Shown here: positions 3,654-29,538 of the stretch, one piece after another
Numbering within the stretch: position 1 is the first letter of the stretch
Layout: each line of letters opens with the position of its first letter
IMG/VR virus record: IMGVR_UViG_3300032323_003479
Location: 1-35,410 of that record
Direction: 5' to 3' (one strand)
From: a virus
Length of the DNA: 35,410 nt
Program-made: the position numbers and the translations under genes
The notes under the pieces: generated by a model
Database searches by the model: none
The model's input: the letters and a program-made list of their open reading frames with translations, nothing else
Told to the model about the DNA's origin: nothing

Positions 3654-3664
3654 ATATTTATAAT
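3654..3664 (+). promoter_or_regulatory. ATATTTATAAT motif, candidate late promoter
   Basis: Starts right after the phoH stop and lies 11 bases before the gp13 ATG, the same spacing as the copy before phoH. It would drive the overlapping 13-14-15 operon. Confidence 0.5.
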
Positions 3665-3675
3665 TAAAACACATC

Positions 3676-4875
3676 ATGAATATACCTATTTGGCCCGGGT
3701 CTAGCTCTTTTGCTCTTTATTCTGCTTCTTATTATAGAACTCCATCAACAGGTAGTGCTCCTACCCCATTTGGAATTTATGATAATGATACTCAATTTAA
3801 AATAGAAGCTGACAAAATAGCTAATTACTGTGCTAGAAGATTAGGATATCCTTTAACAGATATTGAATTACAAGATATAAGCTTTTGGGCTGCTTTTGAA
3901 GATGCTATTATTACTTATGGTAATGAAATATACTCTTTTCAAATAAGAGATAATCTTTTGTCTTTAGAAGGTGCTTCTACTTCAACTTATATCAATGATG
4001 CTATTATAACACCTAATTTAGCTACTATAATTAGAACATCCCAACAATATGCTTCTGAAGCAGGTGTTGGGGGAAATATAACATATTATAGTGGTGCTTT
4101 AGCTTTAACCCCTGGTAAACAAACCTATAATCTAAATGAATGGGCTATAAGCCAAAGTATATCAGGAACTATAGAAATTAAAACAGTATTTTATCAAGAT
4201 CTTCCTGCTATAAACCAAATGTATGCTCCATTTGGAGGTTTTGCGGGATTAGGTGGTTTACCCGCGGCAGGCATATATGGTGGGATGTATGGTGGAGGAT
4301 ATGGAGGTGGTTATTTAATGATGCCTGTAGCATATGATGCTGGAGTAATTCAAGGATTAGAATTAAGCAATCAAATTCGTTTATCAAATTACACATTTGA
4401 AATTATAAATAACAACATAAAAATATTCCCCATACCAACATATAATGATGTTAGGCAAGGATTTTTATGGTTTGAATATATTAAAACAGAAGATAGATAT
4501 ACTAATAGTATTGATCAAACTAGTGGTAGTAAAGTAACAAATACATCAAATGCTCCTTATGATTATCCAATATATTCTCAAATAAATTCTGTTGGTAAAT
4601 CATGGATATATGATTATACATTAGCGCTTAGTAAAGAAATGTTAGGATATGTTCGTGGCAAATACGGAACAATCCCTATCCCAGGTCGTGAAGTTACTTT
4701 AAACCAAGCTGATTTACTATCAGCTGCTACAGCTGAAAAACAAGCTTTAATTGAAAGACTAAGAGTTTATCTTGATGAGACATCTAAAAAGGCTTTACTT
4801 GAAAGAAGAGCACAAGAAAGTGACTTTAGAAGACAAGAAATTAATAATGTACCAATGGTAATATACATAGGATAA
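3676..4875 (+). CDS. gp13: Neck protein gp13-like
   Basis: 399 aa (T4 gp13 is about 309). Neck proteins close the packaged head and form the site where the tail joins. The C-terminal third carries the block KEMLGYVRGKYG followed by IPIPGREVTLNQ, then a helical E/K/R-rich tail, a layout I associate with gp13 of T4-type phages. Identity is also supported by the next two genes, gp14 and gp15, in T4 order. Oddity: a glycine/tyrosine-rich low-complexity segment at about 183-215 (GGMYGGGYGGGY), encoded at about 4222-4330, which may explain the extra length. Its stop overlaps the gp14 start (TAATG), suggesting translational coupling. I am surer that this is a neck/connector protein than of the exact number. 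Confidence 0.7.
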   Translation: MNIPIWPGSSSFALYSASYYRTPSTGSAPTPFGIYDNDTQFKIEADKIANYCARRLGYPLTDIELQDISFWAAFEDAIITYGNEIYSFQIRDNLLSLEGASTSTYINDAIITPNLATIIRTSQQYASEAGVGGNITYYSGALALTPGKQTYNLNEWAISQSISGTIEIKTVFYQDLPAINQMYAPFGGFAGLGGLPAAGIYGGMYGGGYGGGYLMMPVAYDAGVIQGLELSNQIRLSNYTFEIINNNIKIFPIPTYNDVRQGFLWFEYIKTEDRYTNSIDQTSGSKVTNTSNAPYDYPIYSQINSVGKSWIYDYTLALSKEMLGYVRGKYGTIPIPGREVTLNQADLLSAATAEKQALIERLRVYLDETSKKALLERRAQESDFRRQEINNVPMVIYIG

Positions 4876-19960: not shown

Positions 19961-21676
19961 ATGGCAGAAATTTTATTATCCCCCGGTGTTTTATCTAGAG
20001 AGATAGACGCCTCATTTATAGCAGAACAACCACCACAAATTGGTGCTGCTATCATAGGCCCAACTGTTAAAGGTCCTGTTGGTGTTCCTGTGACAGTTAC
20101 TTCATACACTGATTTCACTAGTCGTTTTGGTGAAACTGAAGTAATAGCTGGTACTGGTTCATTCTCATATTTTACTTCAATTGCAGCTTACAACTATTTC
20201 CAGAATGGTGGTGAGACATTATTAGTAACTCGTGTTGTATCAGGAACATATGGTCCTGCTACTGCCTCAGTTTCTAGTAGTACTGGAATAGCATTTAAAT
20301 TAGCTACTATTTCTGAAGGTGCTAATATGAATACTGGAACTTCAGTTGACACTAACAATGCTTTCAACTCAGTAGGTTCAGCTTCAATCCATAGTGTTCG
20401 TTTCCAAATTGTATCTCCAAACACTGCTTCAGGTACATTTAATTTATATGTTCGTAGAGGTGATGATGATGACAGAAACCCAGGTATCTTAGAAACTTAC
20501 ACTGGATTATCAATGGATCCACTTTCTGAGAACTATGTAGCTAGAAGAATTGGTGATTATAAGTTTACTCAAGTAAATTTAGATGGTGAAGCTACTTTAC
20601 AAATTACTGGTACTTATCCTAACAGATCAAGATATATAAGAGTAGAACAGGTACTTCAACCAACTCCACAATACTTAGTAGGTGGTGTTGCAAATATTGC
20701 TTACACTGGATCTATTCCTGTAGCTGGTGGTAACAACAATACTGGTTCATTTAATAATGGTGCTGGTGCTTTAGCAGCAGGTGCTAAATTTTATGATCAA
20801 ATTACCGCAGGTAACATTCAAGGTATTACTGCTTCTAACTACGCAAGTGCAAGTAGCTTATTAGCTAGTGCTAACGACTATCAGTTTAATGTGTTAATTG
20901 CTCCTGGTTTAAATTACGCTGACCATAAATCTACATTAGATGTTATTATCAGTAATACTGAAAATAGAGGTGATAATGTGTTTGTAATGGATTTAGGTGG
21001 CCCTTCAGTTTCAGCTAGTCAAGTTATAGCTACAGCTGCTACTGTTGATTCATCATATGTTGCCTCTTACTATCCATGGGTTCAAACTCTTGATCCTGCT
21101 ACTAACCAGTACGCGTTTGTACCTGCTTCTGTAATGATTCCAGGTGTGTTTGCTTATAATGATAGTGTAGCTGAGCCATGGTTTGCTCCTGCTGGTATTA
21201 CTAGAGGTGGATTAAGCACTGTAATTAGAGCTGCTTCTAAATTATCTCAAACTACTCGTGATAACTTATATCAAGGTAAAGTTAATCCAATCGCTACTTT
21301 CCCTGGTCAAGGTGTTGTAGTATATGGTAACAAAACCTTACAAACTAGAGCTTCCGCTTTGGATCGTATCAACGTTCGTCGTTTGATGATTGCACTTAAG
21401 GGATATATTGGTCAAATTGCTAATGGATTAGTGTTCCAACAGAACAATGCTTCTACAAGAAACTCATTCTTAGCTAATGTTAACCCATATCTTGAGTCAG
21501 TTCAACAAAGACAAGGTTTGTATGCGTTTAAAGTTGTAATGGATGATTCTATTAATAACGCAGCTGTAATTGACAGAAACGAATTAGTAGGTCAAATTTA
21601 CTTACAACCAACCAAGACAGCTGAATTCATTTACTTGAACTTCACACTTACTCCAACAGGTGTTGCTTTTGATTAA
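19961..21676 (+). CDS. gp18: Tail sheath protein gp18
   Basis: 571 aa (T4 gp18 is 659). It is the contractile sheath subunit that surrounds the tube and drives injection. The N-terminus (LLSPGVLSREID, GAAIIGPTVKGPVGVP, NYFQNGGETLLVTRVV) and the C-terminal core (INVRRLMIALKGYIGQIANG, AEFIYLNFTLTPTG) are characteristic of the phage sheath family. The middle (about 130-300) is the variable protruding domain. The gene has its own upstream motif. Codon use is richer in C-ending codons toward its 3' end, like gp23. Followed by gp19, as in T4. Confidence 0.95.
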   Translation: MAEILLSPGVLSREIDASFIAEQPPQIGAAIIGPTVKGPVGVPVTVTSYTDFTSRFGETEVIAGTGSFSYFTSIAAYNYFQNGGETLLVTRVVSGTYGPATASVSSSTGIAFKLATISEGANMNTGTSVDTNNAFNSVGSASIHSVRFQIVSPNTASGTFNLYVRRGDDDDRNPGILETYTGLSMDPLSENYVARRIGDYKFTQVNLDGEATLQITGTYPNRSRYIRVEQVLQPTPQYLVGGVANIAYTGSIPVAGGNNNTGSFNNGAGALAAGAKFYDQITAGNIQGITASNYASASSLLASANDYQFNVLIAPGLNYADHKSTLDVIISNTENRGDNVFVMDLGGPSVSASQVIATAATVDSSYVASYYPWVQTLDPATNQYAFVPASVMIPGVFAYNDSVAEPWFAPAGITRGGLSTVIRAASKLSQTTRDNLYQGKVNPIATFPGQGVVVYGNKTLQTRASALDRINVRRLMIALKGYIGQIANGLVFQQNNASTRNSFLANVNPYLESVQQRQGLYAFKVVMDDSINNAAVIDRNELVGQIYLQPTKTAEFIYLNFTLTPTGVAFD

Positions 21677-21722: not shown

Positions 21723-22211
21723 ATGGCAATTATAAATAACAACGAAATGTTTTTTACAGCATTTGAACCAAAACAGGCTAACCGATTTATCCTGTATATG
21801 GATGGAGTGCCTACTTGGATGATCAAGGGTGTAAGTGCAGTAAGTTTGACTCAAGGTGAAGTAATATTAAACCACATTAACGTTTTACGTAAAGTAAAAG
21901 GTAAATCAGTTTGGGGTGATGTTACTATGACACTTCACGATCCAATCTCACCTTCTGGTGCTCAAGTAATCATGGAATGGGTTCGTTTATCACACGAATC
22001 AGTAACAGGTAGAGATGGATACTCTGACTTCTATAAGAAAGATTTAACTATCAATGCTCTCGGCCCTGTAGGTGACGTAGTAGCAGAATGGGTACTTAAA
22101 GGCGCATTTGTAAAAGACGCTAACTTCGGTGAATATAACTGGGATACTGAAAATACCGCTATAAACATCACAATGACATTAGCAATTGACTATGCCGTGT
22201 TAAACTACTAA
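21723..22211 (+). CDS. gp19: Tail tube protein gp19
   Basis: 162 aa, matching T4 gp19 (163). It forms the hexameric rings of the inner tail tube. Family features: an N-terminal FEPKQANRFILYMDGVPTWM, VKGKSVWGDVTMTLHDPI, GYSDFYKKDLTI, then GPVGDVVAEWVLKGAFVKDA and a C-terminal INITMTLAIDYAVLNY. Codon use is biased toward C-ending codons, as expected for an abundant protein. It is flanked by its own motif upstream and a strong terminator downstream. Confidence 0.95.
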   Translation: MAIINNNEMFFTAFEPKQANRFILYMDGVPTWMIKGVSAVSLTQGEVILNHINVLRKVKGKSVWGDVTMTLHDPISPSGAQVIMEWVRLSHESVTGRDGYSDFYKKDLTINALGPVGDVVAEWVLKGAFVKDANFGEYNWDTENTAINITMTLAIDYAVLNY

Positions 22212-22237
22212 AAGTTAAACTTAACAATTATAAAAAG

Positions 22238-22270
22238 AGCTCGCAAAAAATGCGAGCTTCTTTTTTTCTT
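22238..22270 (+). terminator. Rho-independent terminator after gp19
   Basis: An 8-bp perfect stem (AGCTCGCA with TGCGAGCT), five-A loop, then a T-rich run. It is the second of only two strong terminators in the window. Confidence 0.9.
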
Positions 22271-22315: not shown

Positions 22316-23050
22316 ATGGAAAATAAGTTTAGTATGCCAACAGAAGTTATAGATTTACCTTCAAAAGGTTTAGTCTACCCAGAAACAAGTCCTCTATCAA
22401 GCGGTAAAATTGAAATGAAATATATGACTGCTAAAGAAGAAGACATTTTAACCAATCAATCTTATATTCAAAAAGGAACAGTATTAGATGAACTAATTAA
22501 ATCTCTTATTGTTACTTCAGAAGCTAAGTATGAAGATTTAGTAGTAGGTGATAAAAATGCTTTATTAGTAGCTGCTCGTATTTTAGGTTATGGTAAAGAC
22601 TATACATTTACTTATAGTGGTGAAGAGCAAACAATTGATTTATCACTTATTGAAAATAAACCTTTTGATGAATCTTTATTTGTTAAAGGTAAAAATGAAT
22701 TTGCTTATACTCTTCCTTCAACAGGAATCAAAATTACTTATAAACTTTTAACAGGTCATGATGAGAAAAAAATCAATGCTGAGTTAGAAGGCATTAAAAA
22801 AATTAATAAATTTGCCTCTCCAGAACTATCAACCCGTTTAAAGTATATGATTACTTCAGTTGATGGTGATACAGAAGCTAAAACCATCAGACATTTTGTT
22901 GATAATATTTTCTTAGCCCGTGATTCTAAAGCTTTTAGAGAGCATATAAAGGAGGTACAACCAGATGTTGATCTGACCTTTTTTCCCGAAGGGAGCGACT
23001 CAAAAGTTAACATTCCAATTGGACTTAGCTTTTTTTGGCCTGACCTCTGA
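22316..23050 (+). CDS. gp26: gp26-like baseplate hub / tail-chaperone protein
   Basis: 244 aa (T4 gp26 is 208). It matches the 'T4 baseplate protein' family in its opening VIDLPSKGLVYPE, then IEMKYMTAKEEDILTNQSYI and a LLVAARILGYG segment; the rest is helical and charged. In T4, gp26 is needed to form the central hub and is genetically linked to tape-measure assembly. The ORF ends FFWPDL, 12 bases after a run of seven T (23030-23036). Shifting reading at that run joins it to the ORF ending at 23318, giving a 333-334 aa product. The location just before the tape measure is that of tail assembly chaperones in other phages. Confidence 0.8.
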   Translation: MENKFSMPTEVIDLPSKGLVYPETSPLSSGKIEMKYMTAKEEDILTNQSYIQKGTVLDELIKSLIVTSEAKYEDLVVGDKNALLVAARILGYGKDYTFTYSGEEQTIDLSLIENKPFDESLFVKGKNEFAYTLPSTGIKITYKLLTGHDEKKINAELEGIKKINKFASPELSTRLKYMITSVDGDTEAKTIRHFVDNIFLARDSKAFREHIKEVQPDVDLTFFPEGSDSKVNIPIGLSFFWPDL

Positions 23051-23318
23051 GATAGCTCAACAGTATAGGATTAATCTTTTTACACAAATTCACGAAATAG
23101 TTTTTCATGGCCAGGGCGGTTATGACTGGGAGACAGTCTATAACATGCCCATTTGGCTTCGTAAGTTCACTTTCCATAAAATGAAAGTATACTATGAAGA
23201 GAAAAATGGAGATGGAAATGGTGACTTAGCGTCTCAAACTAACGCTATTAAAGACGGTAAAATCCAAATCCCAGACCATTTTAAAGGTAAGTTAGAACAG
23301 AAAGCTCCAAAGTATTAA
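23019..23318 (+). CDS. Downstream half of a frameshifted pair, probably expressed as a gp26 fusion
   Basis: About 93-99 residues, in the +1 (equivalently -2) frame relative to the gp26-like ORF. The sequence RINLFTQIHEIVFHGQGGYD followed by WETVYNMPIWLRKFTFHKMK is well formed and clearly coding, then a polar C-terminal tail. It may correspond to T4 gp51 by position (hub assembly), but I do not recognise sequence similarity. The frame is open only from 22977, and its one candidate start before the conserved part is a TTG at 23019 without a usable ribosome binding site. Translation by ribosomal frameshift at the T7 run is the simplest reading. A base-count error in the T run would give the same picture. 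Confidence 0.75.
   Translation: MDLAFFGLTSEIAQQYRINLFTQIHEIVFHGQGGYDWETVYNMPIWLRKFTFHKMKVYYEEKNGDGNGDLASQTNAIKDGKIQIPDHFKGKLEQKAPKY
23030..23036 (+). promoter_or_regulatory. T7 slippery run, candidate +1/-2 frameshift site
   Basis: Zero frame reads AGC TTT TTT TGG CCT ... TGA (stop 23048-23050). A +1 or -2 shift reads AGC TTT TTT GGC CTG ... and continues to 23318. Only a weak 4-bp hairpin (TGAG/CTCA) lies just downstream. Confidence 0.55.
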
Positions 23319-23328
23319 TATTTATAAT
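23318..23328 (+). promoter_or_regulatory. ATATTTATAAT motif, candidate late promoter
   Basis: Overlaps the last base of the upstream stop and lies 21 bases before the tape measure ATG. Confidence 0.5.
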
Positions 23329-23349
23329 ATATTACTATTATAAAACACT

Positions 23350-26300
23350 ATGGCATTAACTCCAGATCAGGCTAAACAGTTAAAAGATATGCTTTTAGAG
23401 ATAGAAAAAATCTCTAAAGCACTTAAGAAAAACATAGACGCGACTAGCTTACAGGATTTGGAAAAAAATGCTGATGCTATTAAATCATTATTTGGATCTC
23501 TTAAAAAAGAGTGGGAGGACATAACAGATGATATATCTTACGCTGCTATAGGATTTAAAAAAGTTGTCAAAGAAATTAGTAATGTTAATGTTGGTTTAAA
23601 ACAATCCCAAAAAGCTTACGACAATTTATCCTCTTTAGCCAGCCAAATTCAATCTCATCAACAAGGTATAAATGAACTTTCTTCTAAAGAACTTGCTAAT
23701 AAAAAGAAAAAAGCTGAACTTGCTAGATTAGATCTTTCAAATGCTCAAGAATTATTAAGTGCTCAAGAGAAAGAGCAAAAATTTGATGAAAAAAAACTTG
23801 AAAATCTAAAGAAGGAAAAAGAAGATTTCATCGCTAAATTAAAACAACAAAATGTTAATCAAGATCTAATTAAGGAACAGCAAAAACTATTAGAGGATTT
23901 AGATAAAAAACATAAAGAAAGTTTAAAAGACCTAGCTAAAACTCAAGCTGCTTTAAAAGAAAATGCTTCAGTTTTAGAAAAAGAAAATGAACTTTATAAT
24001 GGCTTAATTTCAGCTATAGAAGATGAAACTAGAAAAGCTAAAAATCTTGAAAAAGCTCTTGGTTTAAGTGGAGCAGCTGTAGAAGGTATAGGTAAAGCTT
24101 TAAATAAAGCAGGTTTAGGATCATTAGCAGACCAAATGGGTTTGGATGATGCTAAAGAAAAAATGAAAGAAGTAGCTCACCAAGTTACTAAAGGAGGTAC
24201 AAAATCAGCAGGATTAGTAGGTCAATTTAAAATTTTAAAAGCTGGTATAGGTTCTTTAGGTGGATCTATAATGAAAAATCTAACTGATCCTTTAGTTATG
24301 GCTGGATTAGCTGCTAAAGCTGTATCAGCAGGTGTTGGGGGAATTAAAAAAGGATTCTCATTATTAAAAGGTGGAGTTAGTTCTGTAGTAGGTTTTGTTA
24401 AAAACCTATGGGGCATGGCAGATCAATTTGCTGCTGTGTTTGAAAAATATGCTAAAGCAGGCCAATTCGCAGCTCAAAACTTTAGCGCTGTTGGTGGTCA
24501 AGTTAACGCGATAACTTCTGGTTTAAACGCAGCAGCCGCCGCTGACCCATTCATGCGAGTATCTGAAGCTGGCCCTGCTTTAAAAGCAATAGTAGACGGT
24601 ACAGGTATGATGACAACACAGATGACTAAATCTGTAAAAGAAGCTCATGATTTATCTTACTGGTTAGGCTATTCAGCTGAAGAAACAGGTAAACTTTACA
24701 AATTAGGAGGTCTAAACAACCAATCAGCTAAAGAAACTTTAATTGATATTAAAGCTAGAGGAGTAGCTTTAAATAGTCAATATAAAACATCTCTTGATCT
24801 TAGAAAAGTAGAGCAAACTGCTCTTAAAGCTAGTTCATCTGTAACTTATAATTTAAAACAAAATCCAAAAGCCATAGCTGAAGCTGCTTTCCATGCTACT
24901 AAACTAAATATGTCGTTAGATGAGATAGCAAGCGCAGCTGAACAAACATTAAATTTTGAACAATCTATTCAAGACCAACTTGCTTACCAAGCAATGTCTG
25001 GTAAAGAAATAAACATAGATGCTTATCAACAAGCTGCTTTAAGAGGAGATACAGTCACAGCGGCAAAAGAATTAAATAATTTAATAGCTCAACATGGTCC
25101 TGGTCTTAAAAATAATGTTCTTTTACAAGAACAGTTTGCTAAAAGTGTAGGTATAGGCAAAGACAAATTACTTGAAGCGATGACTGCTACAGAACTTGCT
25201 ACAAAACTACATGAAAAGCAAGGTGATGTTGAAAAACAACTTCAAGCCTTACAAAGAAAAGGTCTTACTTTAGAAGAAGCTTCTGTTGAATTATCTAAAG
25301 AAGGCCTATCAGGATCTTTAGCTAAATCTAAACGAGCTGAAGCAATGTCTCGTGCTTTAGAAGATTTTAGAGATTATATGGCTACAAAATTATGGCCATT
25401 ATTTAAAGCAGTATTCAGCCCAGCTAACATAAAAATGTTTATGGCTGTAATAAGCGGTATGAGACCTGTTTTTGTTGAGTTAGGTAAAGCAATTACTGCT
25501 TTCTTCTCACCTAAGAGCGCAGGTGCTATGACAGATGTTATTAAAAACGATGTTATGCCTGCCATATTGGATTTAGCTAAAATGGTCACAGAAGTAGCAG
25601 GTGTATTAGGTGAATCTCTTTTTAGTGTTATTAAAACATTAGGCCCTGTCATTAAAAAAGATGTTATACCTATATTTAAATTCTTAGGAGGCATTATTAA
25701 AGAAATAGCCCCAGCAGTTGGATCATTAGTTCAATCATTTGCTCAAGGATTAGGTAAAGTCTTTGGTAAAATAAATGAGAATAAAGAAGATATAAAAGAA
25801 TTTATTGAGATATTAGCTAAAGGTTTAACTAATGTTTTTGGTTTTGTAGCTGATCATTTAAAAGAAATAGCTATAACTCTTGTGGCTTTTAAAGCATTAA
25901 CAGCTGTTAGAAGTCTTAAATCAGCTGTTATGGGAGCTCCAGGCGGTAGCCGTGTGAACGCTATGTGGATTAGATCAGCAGATGGAGTACCTGGAGGAGG
26001 ATTAGGAAGTAAAGCATCTGCTGGAGGAAAAGCAGCTGCTGGAGGGGGAATGATGTCTAAAGTTAAAGGATTTTTTGGAATGGGTGGTGCTAGTTTTGCT
26101 GATAAGCGAGAAATGGTAGCTGCTCGTCAAGCTGCTGGGGGAGGATTAGGAAGTAAAGCATCATCTGTTAGTGCTGGAGCTAAAGGAGCTGCTGGAGCAG
26201 CTGGAGGAACAGCTGGGAATGTTGGAGCAGGAGCTGCTGGGGCAGGCAAATTTGGACAAATGGCTGGAGGTATGCTTAAAGGAGCAGCAGCTTTATTAGT

Positions 26301-29300
26301 GTTATCTGGTGCTTTATATGTAGCTGCTAAAGCATTTCAAGAGTTCGCTTTAGTAGATTGGGAAGATTTTGGCAAAGGAGTAGCAGCTTTAGGTGTTTTA
26401 GGTGTCACCGCATATCTTTTAAGCCAAAATGAAAAAAACATGCTAAAAGGAGCAGCTGCTATAGCAATACTAGGAGCTGCTTTAATACCAGCAGCGGCTG
26501 CATTTTTGTTATTTGATAAAGTTGATCCAAAAACCTTACTCACAGTAGCAGGAGCTTTAACTGTTTTAGGAGTAGCAGCAGAAATTTTTGGAGCATTAAT
26601 GACAACTGGATTAATGGAACTTGGAATATTAGCTATAGAAGGTTTAGGATTATCATTAATTCCATTAGCAGCGGCTTTATTATTAGCTACTCCATTTATG
26701 GAAGCTTTTGGAGAAGTGATAGATAAGACATTAAAACATGTTCCTGATATTATAGATGCTATAACAAAATCTATAATACAATTATCAAAAGAAACCCAAC
26801 CTGGTCAATTAGTTAAATTAGGATTAGCTTTAATTCCATTATCATATGGTATTAAAGCTTTAGGAGCAGCAGCATCTGCCGCTGGAATAGCAGATGCTGT
26901 TTCCTCAGCTGTGGGTGGAGGTGGTTTGTATGATCTTTTAGATGGTTTAGTAGCTTTAGGTACTCTTGATCTTAAAAGTGCAGCGGCTAATTTCCAAGCG
27001 GGGTTAATGGAATTTACAAAAATTGGAACTGATATATCTTTTAGCCATCTTGAAGATTTATTTGATGATTTTGAAGATGCTATAGAGGAAATAGATATTG
27101 ATGATTTAATAGCATTTTCTGATTTAGCTGGTAAAAGTATAGCTGGGGCAGCTAGATCTTTAGTGAAAGGTATAGCTGAGTTTGCTACTATGACTGATGA
27201 AGGGGGCAAGTTAGCTGGAAAAGACATTGGTAAAAGTAATGCTATTGGAAGTGTAAAAACAGGACTCACAGCTTATTTTTCTAATTTAGAAGATTTATTT
27301 GATGAAGTAGAAGATGCTATAGATGAATTAGATATAGATGAACTAGTAAAATTTAGTCAATTAGCTAGTGTTAGTTTATCAGCCGCTGTTAAAAGTCTAA
27401 GTAGAGGTTTAGATGCTTTCAATAAAATGGATATTGATAAAGCTGGAGCAGAAGCTGCTGTAACTAAGTTAGCTGGTTTAGAAGATATTTTTGATGAATT
27501 AGAAGATGCTATAGATGAATTAGATTTAGAAGAATTAACTGAGTTTGCCGCATTAGGTAAAGCTAATTTAACAAACGCTGTTAAAGTACTTGAACAAGGA
27601 ATTACAGCTCTACTCGGCCTAAATGTCACTTTTGACCCAGATTCTGATAAATTATCTCAACTTAGAAAAACTTTCTTTAAATTTAGTGCAGCTTTAGGTG
27701 AAATAGATTTAAGTGCTGTCATTAAATTTGCTGAACTAGCCAAAGCAGATTTAGGTTTAGCTGCTATTAATCTCAAATCAGGAATTGAAAATTTAGCTAA
27801 ACAAAGTATTGAAGTATCAGAAGATAACTTAGAAAAAGTTACAACTACTCTTGAGCTTTTTAATGATGCTATAGGTGCTATCCAAATGGATAATGTTGTT
27901 AAGTTTGCTGAGTTAGCTAAAGCAGATTTATCATTAGCTGCTGCTAACCTTAAAGCAGGTGTTGAAAGTTTTGCTTCACAAGGTATAGCCGCTACTGAAG
28001 AACAATTATCCCCAATGGAAACTGCTTTAGAAGCATTTGATACAGCCATTGGTGCTATAACAATGGATAATGTTATTAAATTTGCTGAATTAGCTAAAAG
28101 TGATTTATCATTAGCAGCTACTAATTTTAAAACAGGTTTAGACAAATTCTTAGAAATCGCTAAGACCATTACTAAAGATTATTATGCTGATATTGAAAAT
28201 TTCCAAGAACCTATTCAATCTCTTGGAATGGCTTTATCAGTTGACTCTGGAGTATTTGACAAAGTATCAGCTTTTGCTAAAATGGATCTAAAGAATTTTG
28301 TCACTACAATAGGTGATTTTAAATTAGGTTTAGATAAATTTAAAGAAATTAGTGAAGGTGTTACTGAAACAACTTATGATAATGTAGCTACATTATTCTC
28401 TGGCTTAAATGAAATTTTTTCTACCATAGATGTTGAAAAAATAACAACATTCGCTGGAGCTGATTTTTCAAAATTCTCTAGTTCAATAGATGGATTTAAA
28501 GCCGGATTAAATAAACTAGCCACCTTAAATTCAGGCGAAAATCCTATTGATGTAGGAGCACTTAAAACTTTCTTAACAACATTAAGTGAGGCGTTTGTAG
28601 GAATAGATTTAACTAGTTTAACTAAATTTGAAGATTTTGCTAAAGCTGATTTTTCAAAGTTTGCTTCAAGTATTAAATCTTTAGGATTAGGTTTAGATGA
28701 AACAGCTAAATTACCAACTGATAAAAAAGCTATATATGATCTTTTAAAAGATGATCTTAATGCTTTTAATATTGCTCTAAGCACTCTTAATATTACTCGT
28801 TTAGGTGAATTCGCAGCTGCAGCTGGTACTTTTTCAAAGTTAAAAACAGCTATAACTAATCTGCAAGGTGCTTTAAAAGTTTTAACAGGATTAGCTATTA
28901 ATAAAGAAATAGCTCAACTTAAAGAATTAGCTACTATTGATTCTAGTAAATTAATATCTTTATCTGATGCACTTATTAAACTAAGTGATTCATTTGTCAC
29001 TTTAGCTAAAGCTATAAAAGAAATGGGAGACATTACTCCTGTAGTGACTATATCAGAACATATGCTTAAGCTTCATAAGTCTATAGTTGAAAATCCTATT
29101 GATGAAGATTTTGCCTCTGAACTATCTGAAGGTCTTAAATCATCTGTTGATACAGTGATGACATCATTAGCTGGTGTGTTTGGGTTTAAAAAACAAAACT
29201 CTACAGGAACTGTACCTGAAGTGAAGGATGGTGTAGTACACGCTCAGGATGGAGAACTTAACCCTAATGGAGGCCCAGTTGTTTCTACCTTCCAAAAAGG

Positions 29301-29538
29301 ACAATTAGTCCCAGTAATGCAAGGTATTAAAGAAGATAATGTTTATTTAACTACTAATAAACCTCAATCTTCTCCAACTAGTGGAGGCACTGTAGTTGAT
29401 AACTCAGCTGTTATAGCTGCTATAAATAAATTAACAGAAATAATGGCTTCTAGTGCTGATAAGAAAATAGTAGTTGATGTTAAATCTGATATTCCTGCTT
29501 TTGTATCAAAAGTAAGACAGACGTCTTTTGGAGGATAA
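23350..29538 (+). CDS. Giant tape measure protein (gp29 position)
   Basis: 2062 aa, against 590 for T4 gp29. Tape measure proteins set tail length and are ejected during infection. Residues 1-250 are charged coiled coil; about 300-355 is Gly/Ala hydrophobic helix. About 864-980 is a Gly/Ala/Lys linker with a direct repeat. About 973-1135 contains several strongly hydrophobic helices (LKGAAALLVLSGALYVAA, LKGAAAIAILGAALIPAAAA), as often seen in tape measures. About 1234-1830 is a series of about ten diverged repeats of about 60-80 residues with acidic helices and the motif F.(E/Q)LAKADL. The C-terminal 100 residues include a Gly-rich section. The place between the gp26-like gene and the tube-baseplate gene, as well as length and helical composition, support the call. 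No peptidoglycan hydrolase motif is obvious. Confidence 0.88.
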   Translation: MALTPDQAKQLKDMLLEIEKISKALKKNIDATSLQDLEKNADAIKSLFGSLKKEWEDITDDISYAAIGFKKVVKEISNVNVGLKQSQKAYDNLSSLASQIQSHQQGINELSSKELANKKKKAELARLDLSNAQELLSAQEKEQKFDEKKLENLKKEKEDFIAKLKQQNVNQDLIKEQQKLLEDLDKKHKESLKDLAKTQAALKENASVLEKENELYNGLISAIEDETRKAKNLEKALGLSGAAVEGIGKALNKAGLGSLADQMGLDDAKEKMKEVAHQVTKGGTKSAGLVGQFKILKAGIGSLGGSIMKNLTDPLVMAGLAAKAVSAGVGGIKKGFSLLKGGVSSVVGFVKNLWGMADQFAAVFEKYAKAGQFAAQNFSAVGGQVNAITSGLNAAAAADPFMRVSEAGPALKAIVDGTGMMTTQMTKSVKEAHDLSYWLGYSAEETGKLYKLGGLNNQSAKETLIDIKARGVALNSQYKTSLDLRKVEQTALKASSSVTYNLKQNPKAIAEAAFHATKLNMSLDEIASAAEQTLNFEQSIQDQLAYQAMSGKEINIDAYQQAALRGDTVTAAKELNNLIAQHGPGLKNNVLLQEQFAKSVGIGKDKLLEAMTATELATKLHEKQGDVEKQLQALQRKGLTLEEASVELSKEGLSGSLAKSKRAEAMSRALEDFRDYMATKLWPLFKAVFSPANIKMFMAVISGMRPVFVELGKAITAFFSPKSAGAMTDVIKNDVMPAILDLAKMVTEVAGVLGESLFSVIKTLGPVIKKDVIPIFKFLGGIIKEIAPAVGSLVQSFAQGLGKVFGKINENKEDIKEFIEILAKGLTNVFGFVADHLKEIAITLVAFKALTAVRSLKSAVMGAPGGSRVNAMWIRSADGVPGGGLGSKASAGGKAAAGGGMMSKVKGFFGMGGASFADKREMVAARQAAGGGLGSKASSVSAGAKGAAGAAGGTAGNVGAGAAGAGKFGQMAGGMLKGAAALLVLSGALYVAAKAFQEFALVDWEDFGKGVAALGVLGVTAYLLSQNEKNMLKGAAAIAILGAALIPAAAAFLLFDKVDPKTLLTVAGALTVLGVAAEIFGALMTTGLMELGILAIEGLGLSLIPLAAALLLATPFMEAFGEVIDKTLKHVPDIIDAITKSIIQLSKETQPGQLVKLGLALIPLSYGIKALGAAASAAGIADAVSSAVGGGGLYDLLDGLVALGTLDLKSAAANFQAGLMEFTKIGTDISFSHLEDLFDDFEDAIEEIDIDDLIAFSDLAGKSIAGAARSLVKGIAEFATMTDEGGKLAGKDIGKSNAIGSVKTGLTAYFSNLEDLFDEVEDAIDELDIDELVKFSQLASVSLSAAVKSLSRGLDAFNKMDIDKAGAEAAVTKLAGLEDIFDELEDAIDELDLEELTEFAALGKANLTNAVKVLEQGITALLGLNVTFDPDSDKLSQLRKTFFKFSAALGEIDLSAVIKFAELAKADLGLAAINLKSGIENLAKQSIEVSEDNLEKVTTTLELFNDAIGAIQMDNVVKFAELAKADLSLAAANLKAGVESFASQGIAATEEQLSPMETALEAFDTAIGAITMDNVIKFAELAKSDLSLAATNFKTGLDKFLEIAKTITKDYYADIENFQEPIQSLGMALSVDSGVFDKVSAFAKMDLKNFVTTIGDFKLGLDKFKEISEGVTETTYDNVATLFSGLNEIFSTIDVEKITTFAGADFSKFSSSIDGFKAGLNKLATLNSGENPIDVGALKTFLTTLSEAFVGIDLTSLTKFEDFAKADFSKFASSIKSLGLGLDETAKLPTDKKAIYDLLKDDLNAFNIALSTLNITRLGEFAAAAGTFSKLKTAITNLQGALKVLTGLAINKEIAQLKELATIDSSKLISLSDALIKLSDSFVTLAKAIKEMGDITPVVTISEHMLKLHKSIVENPIDEDFASELSEGLKSSVDTVMTSLAGVFGFKKQNSTGTVPEVKDGVVHAQDGELNPNGGPVVSTFQKGQLVPVMQGIKEDNVYLTTNKPQSSPTSGGTVVDNSAVIAAINKLTEIMASSADKKIVVDVKSDIPAFVSKVRQTSFGG
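25996..26162 (+). repeat. 23-nt exact direct repeat in the tape measure linker
   Basis: The same 23 bases, encoding GGLGSKAS, occur at 25996-26018 and 26140-26162, 144 nt (48 codons) apart and in frame. Confidence 0.9.
27049..28890 (+). repeat. About ten diverged repeats in the tape measure
   Basis: Units start near residues 1234, 1313, 1377, 1441, 1501 and 1560, with later, weaker units to about 1840. The first three share LED(L/I)FDE(x)EDAI(D/E)E; the next three share A(L/I)G(E/A)I followed by V(I/V)KFAELAK(A/S)DL. The spacing settles to about 59-61 residues in the middle units. Confidence 0.8.

Follow-up and report, generated by a model that had tools for sequence, protein, structure and literature searches.

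A gp26/gp51-family tail-assembly-chaperone gene very probably expressed through a +1 frameshift

An open reading frame (ORF) that overlaps the 3' end of a gp26-like gene in another frame raises the question of how the two are expressed. We studied this in the IMG/VR virus record IMGVR_UViG_3300032323_003479, all 35,410 nucleotides (nt) of which are called the window below. Our analyses indicate that positions 22316-23318 very probably form a single tail-assembly-chaperone (TAC) gene of the T4 gp26/gp51 family, whose TAC-N/TAC-NC pair would arise by a +1 frameshift. The zero-frame product, a TAC-N-like (gp26-like) protein of 244 amino acids (aa) encoded at 22316-23050 on the + strand, was assigned from PHROG_150, Pfam, AlphaFold2 (AF2) and PDB matches of its N-domain. 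Its ORF ends ...AGC TTT TTT TGG CCT GAC CTC TGA and the protein ...IPIGL S F F W P D L, with a run of seven T at 23030-23036 and the TGA stop at 23048-23050. The second frame, which is +1 relative to the gp26-like ORF and could be joined to it by a +1 or a -2 shift, is open from 22977, just after a TGA at 22974-22976, to a TAA at 23316-23318, and its sole early start candidate is a TTG at 23019. This layout had been described in an earlier note made from the sequence, and our reading of the window confirmed it; the fusion, put there at 333-334 aa, comes to 333 aa when one base is skipped in the T run. The openness of the second frame is not due to chance, because only 2 of 2,000 dinucleotide shuffles keep the segment open. 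The extension itself has 93 aa (23037-23318, + strand; GLTSEIAQQYR...IHEIVFHGQGGYDWETVYNMPIWLRKF...), which would complete the 333-aa TAC-NC fusion, and the evidence for it comes from the conservation of the +1 block, from ratios of nonsynonymous to synonymous substitution rates (dN/dS), and from sequence profiles.

To follow the arrangement across relatives, we read mechanically the 80 best-matching relatives in IMG/VR (65-90% identity), of which 79 continue past the gp26 stop. All 79 have a homologue of the second ORF in the +1 frame, overlapping the gp26 stop. In one of them (L017), the codon of a conserved Trp within the +1 block, at about 3796-3823, is replaced by a TGA, possibly a sequencing error or a broken copy. 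The same arrangement occurs in six distant isolate or jumbo genomes (Flavobacterium phage immuto, Microcystis phage Mel-JY01, a 484-kb uncultured phage, Streptococcus GXN1, Rhodothermus RM378, and Listeria LIS04) as well as in Bacillus SP-15 (L089) and L090; in the distant relatives, it is mostly unannotated. The alignment of related loci proposed in the earlier note thus found the site, the frame offset, and the gene order conserved in relatives and isolates alike. The median dN/dS is 0.24 in the core and 0.32 in the extension beyond the overlap (941 pairs), showing that both are under purifying selection.

The overlap of the +1 and zero frames that is common to these relatives narrows to 29 nt, and the T run always lies inside it; L066 has a +1 frame that becomes open one codon upstream of the run. 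The shift-site motif TTTTTTTGGCCTGAC (23030-23044, + strand; zero frame TTT TTT TGG CCT GAC) is near-invariant in the clade, where it takes the form TTTYTTT(GG/AC)CCTGAC (n = 75 members). Within it, we propose a P-site UUU at 23033-23035, a skipped U at 23036, and GGC at 23037-23039 as the next codon (+ strand), on the basis of a conserved pattern: 87 of 87 +1 members have YUU with a pyrimidine after it at this point, a combination shown by 1.8% of codons in other parts of gp26. The capacity of the P-site codon for +1 re-pairing is therefore kept across all variants. In-frame TTT TTT T occurs only within nine codons of the end of gp26; a frameshift reading by TGGC or TTTT words also matches other places in the gene. 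When TTTYTTTGGCCTGAC, a 15-mer, served as the only query against IMG/VR, 79 of the 80 contigs among the matches listed carried it in frame at the 3' end of a gp26-like gene, and the remaining one is a chance match. Among these 79 loci, 77 pass the profile of the +1 block, and reading of the other two (L222 and L228) revealed a divergent yet open +1 block. The extensions of these two loci (e.g., FILMQHLNFSYKDAYFLPVWKRTWFIGKL) look intermediate between the window block and the cyanophage -1 block described below. The near-invariant GGCCTGAC 3' of the site may act additionally as an mRNA signal. No Shine-Dalgarno-like element was seen beside the shift site on inspection of the window sequence. 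Some 50 bases 5' of the site there is another in-frame run of T, TTT TTT CCC at 22979-22984, and in close relatives the +1 frame often opens right there; as a shift site this run was rejected, being outside the open +1 frame in relatives with overlaps of 29-47 nt.

In the mechanism that we propose, most ribosomes would stop at 23050 and release the short form, a gp26-like TAC-N comparable to lambda gpG. In a minority, the peptidyl-tRNA on UUU 23033-23035, with UGG waiting in the A site, would move ahead by one base to pair with the overlapping UUU, after which the ribosome would read on through GGC-CUG-ACC..., giving a 333-aa TAC-NC (like lambda gpGT and T4 gp51). The predicted junction peptide is ...LSFFGLTSEIAQQYR, to which a -2 shift would add an extra residue. 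The tape measure protein, whose gene comes next, would be coated by both forms, and tube subunits would be recruited by the extension; neither form would remain in the virion. The comparisons show conserved frames, a conserved site and gene order, purifying selection on both parts, and a chain of homology to T4 gp51; we infer the shifting itself, its ratio, and the binding roles.

Other ways of reaching the second frame can be weighed against the same variants. The frame offset alone fits a ribosomal shift of -2, such as that of phage Mu, just as well as one of +1, and the poly-U of the commonest sequence permits re-pairing two bases upstream. Yet in TTT CTT TGG, TTT CTT TAC, AAC TTT CTA, and TTC TTT CGT, the P-site tRNA pairs poorly two bases back, while one base forward it can still pair with UUU or UUC. 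Slippage of the RNA polymerase on the seven T, by which some mRNAs would carry six U and encode the fusion without any ribosomal shift, is suggested by the run itself, which reaches eight T in L034-L036: runs of seven to eight T are long enough for polymerase slippage in AT-rich templates. However, eleven TTT CTT members, GXN1 (TTC TTT C), and LR756508 (TTT CTA) have no such run and their offset is unchanged; the homopolymer-free variants TTTCTTTGG/TTTCTTTAC likewise retain the +1 offset. Variants that keep only forward re-pairing, without a long homopolymer, therefore favour +1 over both -2 and transcript slippage. We regard the -2 shift as very unlikely, so that the comparison favours the +1 half of the "+1/-2" shift suggested in the earlier note over the other half, and slippage of the polymerase as highly improbable.

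The second ORF might instead be a separate gene, translated from an internal start (the TTG at 23019 or another) or by termination-reinitiation. Overlapping genes are common in phages, and many close relatives have the TTG in an identical position. The TTG is, however, accounted for by the codons of gp26, and a start ahead of the block is not conserved: 8 of 82 relatives lack any ATG, GTG, or TTG there, and 39 of 82 lack ATG and GTG. A second ORF with its own ATG and leader in relatives, named in the earlier note as an outcome that would speak against a fusion, is thus not what the relatives share. A separate gene would also leave unexplained the near-invariant 15-mer and the matching -1 heptamers of a sister lineage, and we consider it very unlikely. 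Homopolymers are error-prone in sequencing, so that a miscounted T, or a pseudogene, could hide one continuous ORF. Well over 80 contigs and isolates that are independent of one another, the homopolymer-free variants among them, nevertheless have the same offset, and no relative shows six T or an in-frame fusion, the outcome named beforehand as fatal to a frameshift. The probability of such an artefact is close to nil.

The preferred reading, a +1 frameshift within a single TAC gene, is accompanied by a sister lineage with the mirror arrangement. A gp26 gene with a small overlapping ORF in the -1 frame is present in S-SM2, Sf-FS3, C48C1, Melnitz (Methylophilales), and KVP40, and the same layout occurs in Rhizobium IC12 and RL38J1, XacN1, and a marine single-cell virus; in L103 and the jumbo phage LR756511, too, the frame appears to be -1. 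Their site, T TTT TTC/TTT/TTG, codes for Phe-Phe before the stop (Phe-Leu in RL38J1). We examined 82 further loci for it (80 cyanophage-type and 2 KVP40-type), and the heptamer TTTTTTC (T TTT TTC) with an open -1 block is present in 80 of the 80 with enough sequence. The small -1 ORF is PHROG_634 "baseplate hub assembly catalyst" (E-value 1e-28) and also matches the last ~45 positions of PHROG_150. In cyanophages, KVP40, and Rhizobium phages (L104, L106-L112), the small ORF after gp26 is annotated as hypothetical or "hub assembly catalyst"; the annotated starts are internal, and the ORFs look like -1 extensions of gp26.

The link to T4 was made by comparing profiles, with scores judged against 100 column-shuffled controls. 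The gp26-like core matches PHROG_150 "baseplate hub" (E-value 8.7e-9), and T4 gp26 (208 aa) and gp51 (249 aa) both belong to PF12322, gp51 consisting of the core with a C-terminal extension. The window block scores 27.7 against the cyanophage -1 block (null 10.3 +/- 2.5) and 29.5 against the SP-15-type block (null 10.2 +/- 2.1), and the cyanophage -1 block scores 28.4 against the C-terminus of gp51 (null 10.8 +/- 2.1); 0 of 100 shuffles reach the score in each of the three comparisons. By this profile evidence and the PHROG_634 match, the frameshifted block of the cyanophages and KVP40 is taken to be the C-terminal extension of T4 gp51. A direct profile comparison of the fusion with gp51 is not significant (E-value 0.38), nor is that of the window block with the gp51 C-terminus (12.5, against 11.5 for shuffles), and the link from window to T4 therefore passes via the cyanophage -1 block. 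Phages that frameshift have one copy of the PF12322/gp26 family each, while T4 and a T4 relative have two. The gene also lies between those for the tail tube and the tape measure, the position required of a TAC of the G/GT type.

The fold was approached by modelling core and extension separately, which gave AF2 predicted local distance difference test (pLDDT) scores of 90 and 66, respectively. When about 935 PDB chains were re-aligned to the core model with VIA-align, the top rows were YqbN (3klu, Z 6.1, 89 residues) and the HK97 TAC (gp13; 2ob9, Z 5.1, 83 residues), both covering core residues 1-97, followed by 5ir0 (Z 4.2) and then a drop to 2.9. YqbN is XkdN-like and is grouped with TACs. 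The likeness of the modelled N-domain to solved TACs is modestly supportive, short of proof; neither the core nor gp51 has a sequence relative among the solved structures.

Several results weigh against assigning the locus to a frameshifted gp26/gp51-family chaperone. The window protein scores 24.1 bits with Pfam T4_baseplate (PF12322), just under the cutoff of 24.5; its relatives LIS04 and GXN1 score 85-89 bits. The direct comparison of block and gp51 C-terminus given above points the same way, and a downstream stimulatory structure is not clear (mean z -0.8). Foldseek of the core against the PDB gave no significant match (2ob9, E-value 1.3), and Z values of 5-6 can reflect a common arrangement.

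Considering all lineages together, we lean slightly towards a scenario in which one chaperone family interchanges three routes to the same short/long pair, with the direction of the shift set by the flanks of the T run. The +1 route is that of the window clade, SP-15/LIS04/GXN1, and RM378; -1 at the same Phe-Phe position is that of cyanophages, KVP40, and others; and duplication with a fixed fusion is that of T4. A T before the run appears to give -1, and a non-T before it with a pyrimidine after YUU appears to give +1; the base before the run is a non-T in 84 of 87 +1 members.

The surroundings of the locus are those of a tail module on the + strand: a tail sheath (19961-21676; PHROG_23, E-value 2e-75), the gp19-like tail tube protein immediately upstream (21723-22211; PHROG_4542 tail tube, E-value 9e-21), and downstream a 2062-aa tape measure protein (23350-29538), assigned from PHROG_167 tail length tape measure (E-value 4.5e-5), length, and position. 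A terminator-like hairpin with a T tail (22237-22268) stands after the tail tube gene and before the gp26-like gene, where it perhaps separates expression of the abundant tube from that of the scarce chaperone. Between the extension and the tape-measure gene lies ATATTTATAATA (23318-23329, + strand), an element counted nine times in the window with 0-1 mismatch against 2.7 expected (0 of 100 shuffles reach nine). Its + strand copies include those at 3654, 10215, 19621, 22273, 23318, and 29561, several copies sit 20-45 bases upstream of gene starts, and we consider it a candidate late promoter element. No copy lies between gp26 and the extension, and this placement suggests that the extension is not its own transcription unit. 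A search of the window for Rfam families and tRNAs found none.

Part of this picture is already published. The review by Atkins (2016) describes G-T frameshifting as widely conserved "except T4" (PMC5009743). Vladimirov, Gautam & Davidson (2022), as cited in PMC12846349 and PMC10885494, identified the TAC genes of T4-like phages with a two-gene mechanism; the PRFect paper, citing that study, reports that some T4-like phages have a short gene and a long fusion gene in place of a frameshift (PMC10885494), and the phage Adele paper mentions -1 signals of polyT type in the TAC-N genes of such phages (PMC12846349). As these sources present it, the chaperone identity of the family is prior art, and the -1 sites probably are too. 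The unification of the hub proteins gp26/gp51 with tail chaperones, anticipated in the earlier note, is supported by the PHROG_634 match and the chain of block profiles, and fails as a novelty. The +1 branch appears to be unreported: we found no mention of it in the open-access literature, where the 2022 study is represented by the papers citing it. Most of the lineages examined would then use frameshifting within the T4 hub-protein family, some by +1 and others by -1, and T4 would be the lineage with two genes instead. The annotation of many phages, which lacks the long form and labels the extension hypothetical or "hub assembly catalyst", could be corrected. The two directions offer a natural experiment on what determines them, with a strongly conserved +1 site found in phages related to one infecting Flavobacterium.

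Among known systems, T4 gp26 and gp51 belong to the same family of hub assembly chaperones, gp26 being the short form; T4 uses two separate genes of one frame each, whereas the window phage would use one gene and a +1 shift. The cyanophages, KVP40, Rhizobium IC12, and Melnitz share with it a homologous core and extension, the gene order, and the position of the overlap at Phe-Phe before the stop, but have the canonical -1 heptamer T TTT TTC/T in place of a +1 site. Among the G-T chaperones such as lambda gpG/gpGT (Xu 2004), the modelled N-domain of the core bears a modest likeness to the HK97 TAC (2ob9), and the family searches revealed no sequence similarity to the window protein; lambda shifts by -1, whereas the window phage would shift by +1 and has a larger core (244 aa). 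In prfB (RF2), the +1 site CUU UGA C lets a YUU codon slip onto the overlapping UUU, and several relatives of the window phage have CUU U; prfB has a stop in the A site, where the window site has UGG or UAC, with no adjoining Shine-Dalgarno-like stimulator seen. The TAC of the archaeal halovirus HSTV-2 is likewise proposed to be made by a shift that is "very likely +1" (Atkins 2016, PMC5009743).
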